Source of the DNA: Methylobacterium terrae
GTDB taxonomy: Bacteria > Pseudomonadota > Alphaproteobacteria > Rhizobiales > Beijerinckiaceae
DNA: 64,000 nucleotides
NCBI RefSeq assembly: GCF_003173755.1
Contig: NZ_CP029553.1
Coordinates: 893,001-957,000 of the forward strand
Direction: 5' to 3'
In this document: positions 48,186 to 54,234 of the stretch, piece after piece
How the letters are laid out: each line of letters begins with the position of its first letter
Position numbering within the stretch: position 1 is the stretch's first letter
Notes under the pieces: model-generated
What the model was told of the DNA's origin: nothing
What the model saw: the letters and a program-made list of their open reading frames with translations, nothing else
Databases searched by the model: none
Translations under genes and position numbers: made by a program

Positions 48186-48995
48186 TCAGCCGGCGAGGAG
48201 CCGCCGGGCCGCCGCCCGGTTCGCCCGCAGGTGCGCCTCGGGCGTGGCGGTGCCGGTGATCGGCACCTCGATCGACAGGCAGGCGGTCGGCGGCAGCGCC
48301 GCGACCAGCGCTGCCAGGGGCAGCGCCCCGCCCCCTGCGGGCAGGCGCCCCGCCCGGGCTTCCTGGATGACGGCGTCCGTCGATCGCGGCGCCTCGGCGG
48401 GAGCGTCGCAGAGCTGCGCATGACGGATGAGGCCGGGCGGCACGGCCCGCACGTCCTCGGGCGATCCGCCGGTCCGGGCGAGGTGGAGGGCATCGACGAG
48501 GACGCCGCCGTTCGGCCGGCCCGCGGCCTCGACCACCCGGACGGCATCGGGCAGGCTGGCGACCCGGCGCCAGGCCATGCATTCGAGGTCGACGCCCATG
48601 CCGAACCGGGCCGCGAGGTCGCACGTCTCGGCGAAGCGTGCGACGAGGCGCCCGCGATCCGGGTCGTCGCCGCACACGCTCAACCGCTGCGCGCCGAGCC
48701 CCGCGGCGGCCTCGAGGATGCCGGCGAGCGAGGCCGGCACGAGATCCTCCCCGATGACGACGAATTCGATGTCGTAGACGCGCATCCCCTCGTCGGAGAG
48801 CACCCGGCGCATCGCCCGGAAGGCGTCGCTGCCGGGCGGCAGCTCGTAGAACGGCGCCCCCGGGAAGGCCGGATGGAGCCGCAGGCCGACCGACGCGTAG
48901 CCGGTTCGCGCCGCGAGCCGGACGAGATCGACGGGCGGCACCCCGATGCAGGTGAAGTGGGCGACGCCCAGCGGCCGGTCGGGAGAGGCGTGCAT
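48186..48995 (-). CDS. TIM-barrel sugar-phosphate isomerase/epimerase-like protein
   Basis: 269 residues of the AP-endonuclease-2/xylose-isomerase-like TIM-barrel superfamily. Strand-end motifs are HFTCIGVPPVDLVRLAARTGYASVGLRLHP, VYDIEFVVIGED, VDLECMAWRRV, VLVDALHLARTGGSPEDV, RHAQLCDAPAEAP and CLSIEVPI. The acidic and His positions (E in DIEF, E in LECM, D-H in VDALH, H in RHAQ, E in SIEV) fit a divalent-metal site. Members are isomerases, epimerases or dehydratases. Its place beside the intradiol cluster makes an isomerase or tautomerase step there possible, but this is inference. Confidence 0.8.
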   Translation of the reverse strand: MHASPDRPLGVAHFTCIGVPPVDLVRLAARTGYASVGLRLHPAFPGAPFYELPPGSDAFRAMRRVLSDEGMRVYDIEFVVIGEDLVPASLAGILEAAAGLGAQRLSVCGDDPDRGRLVARFAETCDLAARFGMGVDLECMAWRRVASLPDAVRVVEAAGRPNGGVLVDALHLARTGGSPEDVRAVPPGLIRHAQLCDAPAEAPRSTDAVIQEARAGRLPAGGGALPLAALVAALPPTACLSIEVPITGTATPEAHLRANRAAARRLLAG

Positions 48996-49052
48996 GGCGG
49001 TCGCTCGCAGGGTCGGGATGCGCTCGGCGCGAAGGGGTTCGGGAGGCGCTCG

Positions 49053-49110
49053 CGCTCGGGGAGGTTGGAGGACGCTGACGCTCGGGGAGGTTCGAGGACG
49101 CTGGCGCTCA
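49053..49110. repeat. 26-bp tandem repeat at the end of the GntR gene
   Basis: Two near-identical 26-mers (49053-49078 and 49079-49104, one or two mismatches) plus a partial third that runs into the stop codon of the GntR gene. Seen directly. Confidence 0.75.
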
Positions 49111-49800
49111 GGGGCTGAGCTTGTCGGCGAGGTGCCGCTGCAGGTTGGTGCCCGTGCGGTGGATGTGCTCGCGCAAGCGCTCGCAGGCGAAGTCGGCGTC
49201 GCGCGCGACCGCTCCTTGCGCGATCTCGCCGTGCTCCTGGGCGACGTTGCGGTCGCCGCCGGGCGTGCGCCGCAGGAACGAGCGGCGGTAGCGGTCGTTC
49301 AGGCTGAGCAGCACGCCGCAGAAATTGAGCAGCAGCGGCAAGCGGCAGCCGGCGATCAGCGTGAGATGGAACTCCCGGTGATACGCCTCCCACCGCTCCA
49401 GCGTGTCGGGCGTGCCCGGATCGCGCTCGATCCGGTTCATGCGGTGGAGGGCGCGCATCACGTCGCCCTCCCAATCCACGGTGCCGATCGCGATCGCCTG
49501 GCGCAGGGCCAGGACCTCGAGCTCCTCGCGCAGCCGCGTGATCTCGGCCAGGTTCGAGAGCGAGACCGGCGCGACGCGGTAGCCGCGATTGTCCTCGAAC
49601 ACCACCAGCCCGTCGGAGATCAGCCGGGCGAGCGCCTCCCGCAGCGGGCTCAGCGAGACCCCGAAGCTCCCGCGAGCGCGCTCCAGGTTGATCTTGCTGC
49701 CCGCCTCGAGCTGGCCGGACACGATCGCCTCGCGCAGCCGGTCGACGAGCTGGCTCGCCATCGTGTTCTTGCCGTCGTCGACCAGGGCGAGGCCCGGCAT
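49108..49800 (-). CDS. GntR-family (FCD) regulator of the adjacent ring-cleavage cluster
   Basis: 230 residues from the ATG at 49800; a GTG at 49917 and an ATG at 49761 are in-frame alternatives, and none has a strong Shine-Dalgarno. The winged helix is VDRLREAIVSGQLEAGSKINLERARGSFGVSLSPLREALARLISDGLVVFEDNRGYRVAPV. The FCD domain (LREELEVLALRQAIAIG, YHREFHLTLIAGC) binds the effector. It diverges from the dioxygenase operon, so it most likely controls both that operon and the TIM-barrel gene downstream of it. Confidence 0.88.
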   Translation of the reverse strand: MPGLALVDDGKNTMASQLVDRLREAIVSGQLEAGSKINLERARGSFGVSLSPLREALARLISDGLVVFEDNRGYRVAPVSLSNLAEITRLREELEVLALRQAIAIGTVDWEGDVMRALHRMNRIERDPGTPDTLERWEAYHREFHLTLIAGCRLPLLLNFCGVLLSLNDRYRRSFLRRTPGGDRNVAQEHGEIAQGAVARDADFACERLREHIHRTGTNLQRHLADKLSP

Positions 49801-49926
49801 GGCCGATCCGGCATCGCGCCGCGTCCCGTCCCGGTCGCCCGTCGCGCGTCGGATCCTCGCCTCGGTCAAAACGCTTCTCCCATCGACGATGCGGCCGTAT
49901 TCGCCGTCGACGATCACTATTAAAAA

Positions 49927-51924: not shown

Positions 51925-51931
51925 GGCGGCG

Positions 51932-52699
51932 ATGATCCTTCCCGGGAACCGCTTCAAGCGCGCGCTGCGCGAGGGGCGCCAGCAGATCGGCCTGTGGTGC
52001 AGCCTGCCGGGCTCCTACGCGGCGGAAGCCGTGGCGGGGTCGGGCTACGACTGGCTCTTGTTCGACACCGAGCACTCGCCGGGCGATCCGCTGACCGTGC
52101 TGCCCCAGCTCCAGGCGGTGGTGCCCTACGGCGTCTCGGCGGTGGTGCGCCCCGCCGCCAACGACGCGGTGCTGATCAAGCGCTTCCTCGATCTCGGCGC
52201 GCAGACCCTGCTGATCCCCACCGTGCAGGACGAGCACGAGGCGCGGGCCGCGGTCGCGGCGACGCGCTACCCGCCCGAGGGCGTGCGCGGCGTCTCCGGC
52301 CTGACCCGCGCGACGCGGTTCGGGCGGGTCGCGGACTACGCCGGGCGCGCCGCGGAGGAACTCTGCCTGCTGGTGCAGGTCGAGACCCAGGCCGCCCTCG
52401 ACCGGCTCGAGGCGATCTGCGCGGTCGAGGGCGTCGACGGCGTCTTCGTCGGGCCGGCGGACCTCGCGGCGAGCCTCGGCCACGCCGGCGAGCCCGGCCA
52501 CCCGGAGGTGGTCGCGGCGGTGGAGGATGCGGTGCGCCGCATCCGCGCGGCGGGAAAGCCCGCCGGCATCCTGACGCCCGACCCCGCCTTCGCGAAGACC
52601 TGCATCGCGATCGGCACCACCTTCACCGCCGTCGCCATCGACGTGGGTGTCCTCGCCCGCGGCACCGAGGCCCTGGCGCGCCAGTTCACGGCGGGCTGA
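51932..52699 (+). CDS. 4-hydroxy-2-oxo-acid aldolase, HpaI/HpcH family
   Basis: 255 residues, class II pyruvate aldolase TIM barrel. Catalytic H48 is in FDTEHSPGD and R73 in VVRPA. The metal ligands are E151 (VQVET) and D177 ([10 protein letters not shown]). HpaI cleaves 4-hydroxy-2-oxoheptanedioate to pyruvate and succinate semialdehyde, and is known to accept related 4-hydroxy-2-oxoacids. It starts seven bases after the hydratase stop, so the two steps are clearly linked. Confidence 0.92.
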
Positions 52700-52734
52700 G
52701 CCCGCGCCGTCTTCCCCACGGAACAGGACGACCC

Positions 52735-54234
52735 ATGCCGACCGAGATCGCCCACTTCGTCGACGGCGCGCGCACGCCCGGCCGCAGCGGCCGCACCGCC
52801 CCCTCGTACAACCCCGCGACCGGCGAGGAGACCGGCCGCGTCCCCCTCGCCAGCAAGGACGAGGTCGATGCCGCCGTGGCGGGCGCCCGGCGCGCCTTCC
52901 CGGCCTGGGCCGCGACGCCCCCCTTGCGCCGCGCCCGCATCCTCAACCGCTTCCTGCGCATCCTCGAGGACCGCATCGACGACCTCGCCGCGGTGATCAC
53001 CGCCGAGCACGGCAAGGTGCTCTCCGACGCCAAGGGCGAGATCCAGCGCGGCATGGAGGTGGTGGAGTTCGCCACCGGTGCGCCCCAGCTCCTCAAGGGC
53101 GAGATCACCGAGAACGTCGGCACGCGGGTGGATTCCCACGCCCTGCGCCAGCCGCTCTGGGTGGTGGCCGGCATCACGCCGTTCAACTTCCCCGCCATGG
53201 TGCCGATGTGGATGTTCCCCGTCGCGCTCGCCTGCGGCAACTGCTTCGTGCTCAAGCCCTCCGAGCGCGACCCCTCCGCTTCCCTGGTCATGGCGGAGTG
53301 GCTGAAGGAAGCGGGGCTGCCCGACGGCGTGTTCCAGGTGGTGCAGGGCGACAAGGAGGCGGTGGACGCGCTCCTCTGCAACCTCGACATCGCGGCCGTA
53401 TCCTTCGTCGGGTCGACCCCGATCGCCAAGACCATCTACGAGACCGCGGCGCGCACGGGCAAGCGCGCGCAATGCCTCGGCGGGGCCAAGAACCACATGG
53501 TGGTGATGCCCGACGCCGACCTGGACCAGGCGGTCGACGCCCTGATGGGCGCCGCCTACGGCTCGGCCGGCGAGCGCTGCATGGCGATCTCGGTCGCGGT
53601 GCCGATCGGCGAGGAGACCGCCGACCGGCTGATGGAGAAGCTGGTGCCGAAGGTGCGCGCGCTCAAAGTCGGGCCCGGCACCGACCCGGAGGCCGAGATG
53701 GGCCCGCTCGTCACCGCTCAAGCCCGCGACAGGGTGAAGGGCTACATCGACCGCGGCGTGGCCGAGGGCGCCGAGCTGGTGGTCGACGGTCGCGGACTGA
53801 CGCTGCAGGGCTACGAGGACGGCTACTTCGTCGGCGGCACCCTGTTCGACCGGGTGACGCCCGAGATGACGATCTACAAGGAGGAGATCTTCGGGCCGGT
53901 CCTGGCGGTGGCGCGCGCCCCGGACTACGCGACCGCCGCGCGGATGATCAACGAGCACGAGTTCGGCAACGGCACGGCGATCTTCACCCGGGACGGCGAC
54001 GCGGCCAGGGAATTCGCCCACCAGATCCAGGTCGGGATGGTGGGGATCAACGTGCCGATCCCGGTGCCGATGGCGTTCCACTCCTTCGGCGGCTGGAAGG
54101 CGTCCTTGTTCGGCGACCACCACATGCACGGGCCGGAGGGCGTGCGCTTCTACACCCGGCTCAAGACCATCACGACCCGCTGGCCGACCGGAATCCGGGC
54201 GGGTGCCGAGTTCGTGATGCCGACCATGCGCTGA
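52735..54234 (+). CDS. mmsA: Methylmalonate/malonate-semialdehyde dehydrogenase (CoA-acylating), MmsA-type
   Basis: 499 residues, aldehyde dehydrogenase superfamily. The nucleophile is C282 in [14 protein letters not shown]. The usual catalytic-Glu motif is replaced by [17 protein letters not shown], the mark of the CoA-dependent MmsA branch. [22 protein letters not shown] and the end [30 protein letters not shown] also match MmsA. It converts malonate or methylmalonate semialdehyde to acetyl- or propionyl-CoA plus CO2. In this operon it follows the aldolase by 35 bp, so the aldolase product is the likely substrate. Confidence 0.93.

Follow-up and report, generated by a model that had tools for sequence, protein, structure and literature searches.

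The window analyzed here, a 64,000-nucleotide stretch of Methylobacterium terrae DNA (positions 893001–957000 of a single 6.16-Mb contig), contains a four-gene operon that combines an intradiol dioxygenase with a hydratase, an aldolase and a dehydrogenase. The operon (50232–54234, forward strand; intergenic gaps of 25, 7 and 35 bases) encodes, in order, a 294-residue intradiol dioxygenase (50232–51116; PF00775 at 124.9 bits and PF04444 at 75.8 bits), a 260-residue HpaH-type hydratase (51142–51924; TIGR02312, 355.5 bits against a cut-off of 351.5), a 255-residue HpaI-type class II pyruvate aldolase (51932–52699; TIGR02311, 374.3 against 368.8) and a 499-residue MmsA-type CoA-acylating semialdehyde dehydrogenase (52735–54234; TIGR01722, 700.6 against 448.5). 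The dioxygenase is read from the ATG at 50232, which follows a GGGAGG; an open frame from 50196 is also possible. Two further genes are oriented oppositely to the operon, running from 49917 to 48186 on the reverse strand: a divergent GntR/FCD regulator (49108–49917; PF00392 and PF07729), whose true start is possibly further in, and a 269-residue AP_endonuc_2 TIM-barrel protein (48186–48995). Profile scans placed all six genes in the families and at the coordinates given by an earlier note on this DNA, and the residues it had named in the four enzymes (Y159, Y193, H217 and H219; E106, E108 and E139; H48 and R73; C282) are all at the positions claimed. The absence of an extradiol enzyme and a maleylacetate reductase, also reported there, held for the nine genes scanned in and beside the operon, among which HpaD, HpaE, HpaF and HpaG were likewise not found.

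The conservation of this arrangement was followed in relatives. A dioxygenase scan of one genome per species gave 236 confirmed places, from which the best 80, near relatives only, were kept, and the genes around them were called by tblastn thresholds with a length filter. Together with 13 plasmid loci, picked from match lists and all carrying the hydratase, 93 loci were compared overall. The dioxygenase gene has the hydratase gene next to it in 37 of the 80 genome loci, and these 37 also contain the GntR gene (34), the TIM barrel (33), the aldolase (31, plus two with fragments only), AroQ (25), an amino-acid-type ABC ATPase (24), a Gfo/Idh/MocA oxidoreductase (17), an AroE-like gene (15), a CHMI-type tautomerase (11) and MmsA (1); pcaF, pcaH and pcaG were each found in none of them. 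The 43 genome loci without the hydratase have pcaF (40), pcaH (35), pcaG (35), AroQ (6) and the TIM barrel (5). On the 13 plasmids, the counts are 12 for the aldolase, 12 for GntR, eight for the TIM barrel, five each for AroQ and CHMI, two for LigM and one for MmsA. Among 385 alphaproteobacterial genomes, including that of M. terrae itself, six have the dioxygenase and two the hydratase (both at E ≤ 1e-100); the latter, the window's own genome and one other, both have it beside the dioxygenase, and the remaining four have the dioxygenase without such a hydratase. The gene set is a real, conserved unit, beyond chance, and probably a co-regulated one. The dioxygenase, hydratase, aldolase, GntR and TIM-barrel genes travel together, the outcome required by the co-occurrence check that the earlier note proposed, but MmsA is not in the conserved set outside Methylobacterium.

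The unit also shares a site upstream of the dioxygenase. In the window, TTGACG is followed by the palindrome ATAATCGATGAT (50177–50195, with the palindrome at 50184–50195, forward strand), and the general form before the dioxygenase is TTGAC(A/G)-N-ATAATCGATKAT. The pattern ATAATCGATKAT has a single match in the 6.16-Mb genome, at 50184–50195, and a reversed-pattern control has none. In its strict form it occurs within 250 bases upstream of the dioxygenase in 38 of the 50 hydratase loci versus none of the 43 without hydratase; a looser ATMATCGAT recovers seven of the 12 misses (45/50 in all), and of the rest, L013 and L029 have a related sequence and L014, L018 and L099 none. The palindrome is a probable GntR operator, predicted to be bound by the divergent regulator, and TTGACG a probable −35 element. 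In four Bosea-type loci (L020, L038, L086 and L087), a second copy of the site precedes the GntR gene, which is divergent there from purU and folD; this placement ties the one-carbon genes to the ring-cleavage core.

As for the reaction at the head of the operon, the dioxygenase has the Dioxygenase_N and Dioxygenase_C domains and the Tyr/Tyr/His/His set of hydroxyquinol 1,2-dioxygenases, its Y159/Y193/H217/H219 aligning with Y164/Y197/H221/H223 of 1TMX, which we take to be iron ligands. It scores under every cut-off listed for the NCBIfam catechol, chlorocatechol and protocatechuate models checked, and its nearest solved relatives are PnpC, 8r2v and a hydroxyquinol 1,2-dioxygenase. The Asp83 and Val251 (1TMX numbering) of these three, presumably lining the substrate pocket, are replaced here by Gly76 and Gln247. 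The Gly/Gln pair occupies 101 of 105 aligned rows (all 101 rows of the clade); the other four, at 55–62% identity, keep Asp/Val. Judged by its sequence, the enzyme lacks the hallmark pair of the hydroxyquinol type and is hydroxyquinol-like but departing at two positions. Dioxygenase_C also occurs at three other places in the genome: in a catechol 1,2-dioxygenase (TIGR02439, 443.3 bits against a cut-off of 392) and in two adjacent genes of the PcaHG type, as read from position and length only. The operon dioxygenase is therefore not the genome's ordinary catechol enzyme.

A plain hydroxyquinol 1,2-dioxygenase, forming maleylacetate while the hydratase, aldolase and dehydrogenase serve a different compound under the same regulator, is improbable in our view. 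The solved relatives point that way, as does the position of the Bradyrhizobium-type relatives beside pcaF; in addition, the accessible text on the yeast intradiol enzyme Acdo1p gives hydroxyquinol as its preferred substrate, ahead of pyrogallol and catechol, with no conversion of gallate or protocatechuate (PMC9204233). However, this reading has to accommodate the near-universal loss of Asp83 and Val251 in the aligned rows and the tight dioxygenase–hydratase linkage. It would also call for a maleylacetate reductase, which is missing from the nine genes scanned and was not identified at the two scanned of the genome's three Fe-ADH places, one being a 4-hydroxybutyrate dehydrogenase and one giving no match for the frame scanned.

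The next two enzymes narrow the choice of ring product. HpaH and HpaI pass the curated homoprotocatechuate-type cut-offs, each by a narrow margin, and the PDB relatives of the aldolase are 2v5j and 4b5s. In the hydratase, the ALE-to-DNA segment has 23 residues, seven fewer than the 30 in the solved HpaH 2eb4 and in two homoprotocatechuate-type HpaH copies; the short spacing fits 53 of the 54 cluster hydratases, and the 54th is short by eye. Both families act on 2-oxo diacids, so that 2-hydroxymuconate fits as the ring-cleavage product, whereas maleylacetate or muconate do not. The predicted first step has a precedent: Acdo1p converts pyrogallol to 2-hydroxymuconate by intradiol cleavage, according to the available part of the same report (PMC9204233).

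Taking the directly observed gene content, residues, conservation, shared upstream site and module swapping as a basis, and deducing every reaction from them, we tentatively favour a catabolic operon under GntR control that serves a vicinal trihydroxybenzene; in this genome the compound would most likely be pyrogallol, cut to pyruvate and malonate semialdehyde and on to acetyl-CoA. The dioxygenase would cut the ring between two hydroxyls to give 2-hydroxymuconate; the HpaH-type enzyme would hydrate its 2-oxo form to 4-hydroxy-2-oxoadipate; the HpaI-type aldolase would split this into pyruvate and malonate semialdehyde; and the MmsA-type enzyme would convert the latter to acetyl-CoA. The TIM-barrel enzyme, together with the quinate/shikimate genes or LigM-type O-demethylases of relatives, would form upstream modules supplying the ring compound.

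The TIM-barrel protein, whose closest relatives by fold are Lmo2234, a QuiC-type fusion protein and IolI, has the Glu/Asp/Gln/Glu metal site of the QuiC/AsbF-type 3-dehydroshikimate dehydratases; it misses the NCBIfam QuiC cut-off (31.8 bits against 1200, for a 635-position model). We read its gene as most probably encoding an upstream step that goes with the quinate/shikimate genes. The resemblance to QuiC-type proteins would suit a locus centred on protocatechuate, in which dehydroshikimate is turned into protocatechuate by the TIM barrel and a side product of the latter goes to the dioxygenase, and so would AroQ in 25 of the 37 hydratase-bearing loci and pcaH with pcaG in 35 of the 43 loci without hydratase. 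Nevertheless, we consider this very improbable. The pcaF, pcaH and pcaG genes are absent from all 37 hydratase-bearing loci, and HpaH and HpaI would be left without a substrate, because intradiol cleavage of protocatechuate does not yield 2-oxo acids. In Bradyrhizobium, a family of about 217 residues lies between AroQ and the TIM barrel or dioxygenase (L024:6321–6974, L030:7258–7929, L033:14962–15615), and the two copies scanned (L043, L030) had no Pfam or NCBIfam match.

Around the core, the upstream genes differ between relatives, and annotated plasmid records display at least three such modules. First, Shinella and Rhizobium plasmids carry AroQ, shikimate dehydrogenase, Gfo/Idh/MocA, CHMI, an ABC importer and the TIM barrel, and M. 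nodulans has AroQ, an MFS gene and an AroE-like gene, the last annotated as ThiF, with shikimate dehydrogenase as its best NCBIfam match, under the cut-off. Second, LigM (854.1 and 822.5 bits; cut-off 580), MetF, PurU and a DesA-like protein (548.2, below the cut-off of 800) are encoded on two Agrobacterium plasmids, one of which also has FolD. Third, Rhizorhabdus wittichii RW1 has a flavoprotein monooxygenase and a SnoaL-like gene. When the window was searched by tblastn with these modules, none was found; the matches were the six genes, the TIM barrel's own relative and, weakly, an ABC ATPase and a CoA ligase. Nor did tblastn find a CHMI relative in the window. The quinate/shikimate genes or plasmid LigM of the relatives make a vicinal triol the most likely dioxygenase substrate. 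The first two modules can meet at gallate or protocatechuate, and only gallate, or pyrogallol derived from it, would give the 2-oxo acid that HpaH and HpaI need.

Gallate itself is the most serious rival, possible although less likely than pyrogallol here. The dioxygenase would then form 4-carboxy-2-hydroxymuconate (the oxalomesaconate enol), HpaH 4-carboxy-4-hydroxy-2-oxoadipate, and HpaI pyruvate and oxaloacetate, with MmsA a bystander or in some other step. The Agrobacterium plasmids speak for it, with O-demethylases of the 3-O-methylgallate/syringate type (LigM and DesA-like) and MetF, PurU or FolD flanking the core, as do the upstream site before the GntR gene next to folD/purU in the four Bosea-type loci and the fact that MmsA was not seen outside Methylobacterium. 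Dehydroshikimate can be converted to gallate, and the shikimate-dehydrogenase-like genes and the Gfo-type or FAD oxidoreductases of other versions could do so. Moreover, LigK exceeds its cut-off in 12 of the 14 searched Bradyrhizobium genomes that have the dioxygenase (14 of 28 genomes overall), and in two loci, L024 and L030, the dioxygenase is followed by a transporter gene and a LysR gene, then by oxalomesaconate tautomerase (530.3 in L030; cut-off 440), a LigJ-like amidohydrolase and LigK (406.7 in L030; cut-off 304.5). The next gene in both, however, is presumably LigA, and LigK there may thus serve extradiol cleavage of protocatechuate. LigK is over its cut-off in none of the six Methylobacterium genomes searched, HpaI acts on secondary alcohols, and MmsA would be left without a job. 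The pyrogallol-using yeast enzyme, moreover, fails on gallate according to the part of the report at hand (PMC9204233). In a Sphingomonas metagenome-assembled genome (L018:2118–4703), LigK, oxalomesaconate tautomerase and LigI-like genes lie 3–6 kb upstream of dioxygenase–hpaH–hpaI, placing both kinds of lower pathway in a single locus.

What favours pyrogallol over gallate in this genome is MmsA. The enzyme meets the TIGR01722 cut-off and has the catalytic Cys (C282), as the earlier note held, and is found in only some Methylobacterium units; in the loci compared, no unit outside the genus was seen to contain it. In a survey of 111 Methylobacterium genomes (E ≤ 1e-100 for the dioxygenase, E ≤ 1e-90 for HpaI), 14 have the dioxygenase, 12 at no less than 92% identity and two at 61–62%, and eight have HpaI, seven of them beside the dioxygenase. 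In these seven, the MmsA gene 3′ of HpaI is complete in three (G000, G416, G482), cut by a contig end in two (G412, G413), interrupted by one in-frame TAG in M. nodulans (G440) and absent in G515. The M. nodulans copy lies on a plasmid (L085:11846–13132), and the (incomplete) plasmid table lists no gene there. Relatives of MmsA at 92–93% are present at other places in the genus, including genomes that lack the dioxygenase, and at two of three places read (L134 is the third) they directly follow AptA (734.8 and 739.3 bits; cut-off 500). AptA is presumably a beta-alanine:pyruvate aminotransferase, which would make malonate semialdehyde. With this omega-aminotransferase as neighbour of its relatives, malonate semialdehyde, rather than methylmalonate semialdehyde, is by context the likely substrate of MmsA, which would have been recruited into the operon; a C6 diacid, and hence pyrogallol, is then favoured. 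A plasmid of Bosea sp. 685 has genes for malonyl-CoA synthase and malonyl-CoA decarboxylase (L086:14790–17773) about 3.3 kb downstream of the aldolase.

Several observations weigh against the pyrogallol operon proposed here. MmsA is missing from most clusters (one of 37 genome loci and one of 13 plasmid loci pass the length filter) and carries the TAG in M. nodulans. HpaI is lost in five of the 12 Methylobacterium genomes whose dioxygenase is at 92% or above (G415, G441, G446, G474, G516; remnants seen in three), and in a Bradyrhizobium-type clade (42 tree rows) the dioxygenase is accompanied by pca genes, with neither a hydratase nor an aldolase of this kind close by. A Bosea lupini homologue at 63% (L146), not located near any dioxygenase seen, shares the short hydratase segment; the window has no CHMI relative; and the reading gives the TIM barrel no explained role. 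As to the supply of substrate, LigM is in none of the 37 hydratase-bearing genome loci and two of 13 plasmid loci; the products of LigM and of the likely shikimate route are gallate or protocatechuate rather than pyrogallol; and nothing recognisable as a gallate decarboxylase was found. Finally, the precedent Acdo1p is the more active on hydroxyquinol than on pyrogallol, as far as the text seen goes (PMC9204233). The aldolase has decayed repeatedly in Methylobacterium; remnants of hpaI lie directly 3′ of intact hpaH at L007:4296–4507, L009:3780–3988 and L135:10320. Overall, the chemistry proposed in the earlier note is plausible and partly, if indirectly, supported by the linkage of the genes under a shared site, the two positions at which the dioxygenase leaves the hydroxyquinol type, the yeast precedent and the relatives of MmsA; it is tempered by the restricted MmsA and by the gallate alternative.

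Many relatives encode, after the aldolase, a protein of a solute-binding family with no obvious signal peptide, hence cytosolic-looking (L091:11481–12161, L098:13576–14316, L085:14717–15430). For the copy tested, the solved structures that match best are cyclohexadienyl dehydratases and reconstructed ancestors of these. The window's genome gave no match to it at E ≤ 1e-15; the protein is present in six of 12 Methylobacterium genomes tested (G416, G482, G440, G412, G413 and G441, in the last about 34 kb from the dioxygenase). An AroQ or AroE-like gene lies near the dioxygenase in these six and was not seen near it in the remaining ones, where the stretch upstream is short in three, but a strict tie is contradicted by Bosea loci L011, L016, L017 and L023, which have AroQ without the protein. 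We speculate that it is a gallate decarboxylase. More broadly, and doubtfully, the full cluster of rhizobia and Methylobacterium might be an intradiol gallate/pyrogallol pathway fed by quinate or methoxylated lignin acids. It would give the orphan pyrogallol 1,2-oxygenase a gene, with the cyclohexadienyl-dehydratase-like protein as a new gallate-to-pyrogallol decarboxylase and the malonate-semialdehyde tail in Methylobacterium. Elsewhere in the window (57098–57544), an open reading frame resembles, by its motif, the C-terminal part of a putative IS256-type transposase.

Among known systems, homoprotocatechuate (hpa/hpc) meta-cleavage uses the same hydratase and aldolase families in series. There, the ring is opened by the extradiol HpaD; here, an intradiol enzyme takes its place, the operon contains neither HpaE nor HpaG, the hydratase segment is short by seven residues and the predicted diacid has one carbon fewer. 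A separate cluster with a 52–53% HpaH beside CHMI-like and aldehyde dehydrogenase genes is found in two Bradyrhizobium genomes; L144 and L145 are such homoprotocatechuate-type clusters and make a useful control for HpaH and HpaI. The hydroxyquinol 1,2-dioxygenases (1tmx; PnpC, 3n9t) share domains and iron-ligand positions with the dioxygenase, which differs in its Asp-to-Gly and Val-to-Gln replacements and in lacking a maleylacetate reductase partner in the operon; 8r2v, also compared, is named only as an intradiol dioxygenase. The bacterial gallate pathways (gal of P. putida, lig of Sphingobium) open the ring in extradiol fashion and use hydratase and aldolase families unrelated to those here. 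The likeness lies in a hydratase and an aldolase after ring opening, in the pyruvate product and in LigM-type feeding in two relatives.

Pyrogallol 1,2-oxygenase (EC 1.13.11.35), of Azotobacter origin, catalyzes the same reaction as predicted here, and we know of no sequence for it to compare. A 2007 survey, in the portion available, tabulates it among enzyme activities without sequences (PMC1940265). If the proposal is true, the operon provides a testable gene for this orphan activity, a homoprotocatechuate-type tail rewired behind an intradiol enzyme, and a name for a tannin/lignin-type phenol pathway of many plant-associated alphaproteobacteria, partly on plasmids. Work on engineered syringol conversion, in its accessible part, expresses a need for a pyrogallol-opening dioxygenase whose product can be used (PMC6628648). 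In the literature searched, with most subscription journals outside its coverage, no description of this enzyme combination was found, in agreement with the earlier note's impression that the exact gene set is undescribed. A further counterpart is the gallate/pyrogallol route of the yeast Blastobotrys (Agdc1p, Acdo1p), with the intradiol step from pyrogallol to 2-hydroxymuconate that is predicted here; its proposed tail, in the parts of the reports available, runs through oxalocrotonate decarboxylase, hydratase and aldolase to acetaldehyde (PMC9204233, PMC5605622), whereas here a diacid hydratase, HpaI and MmsA would follow, with no decarboxylase recognised. The operon is a new variant of ring-cleavage chemistry that is already known.

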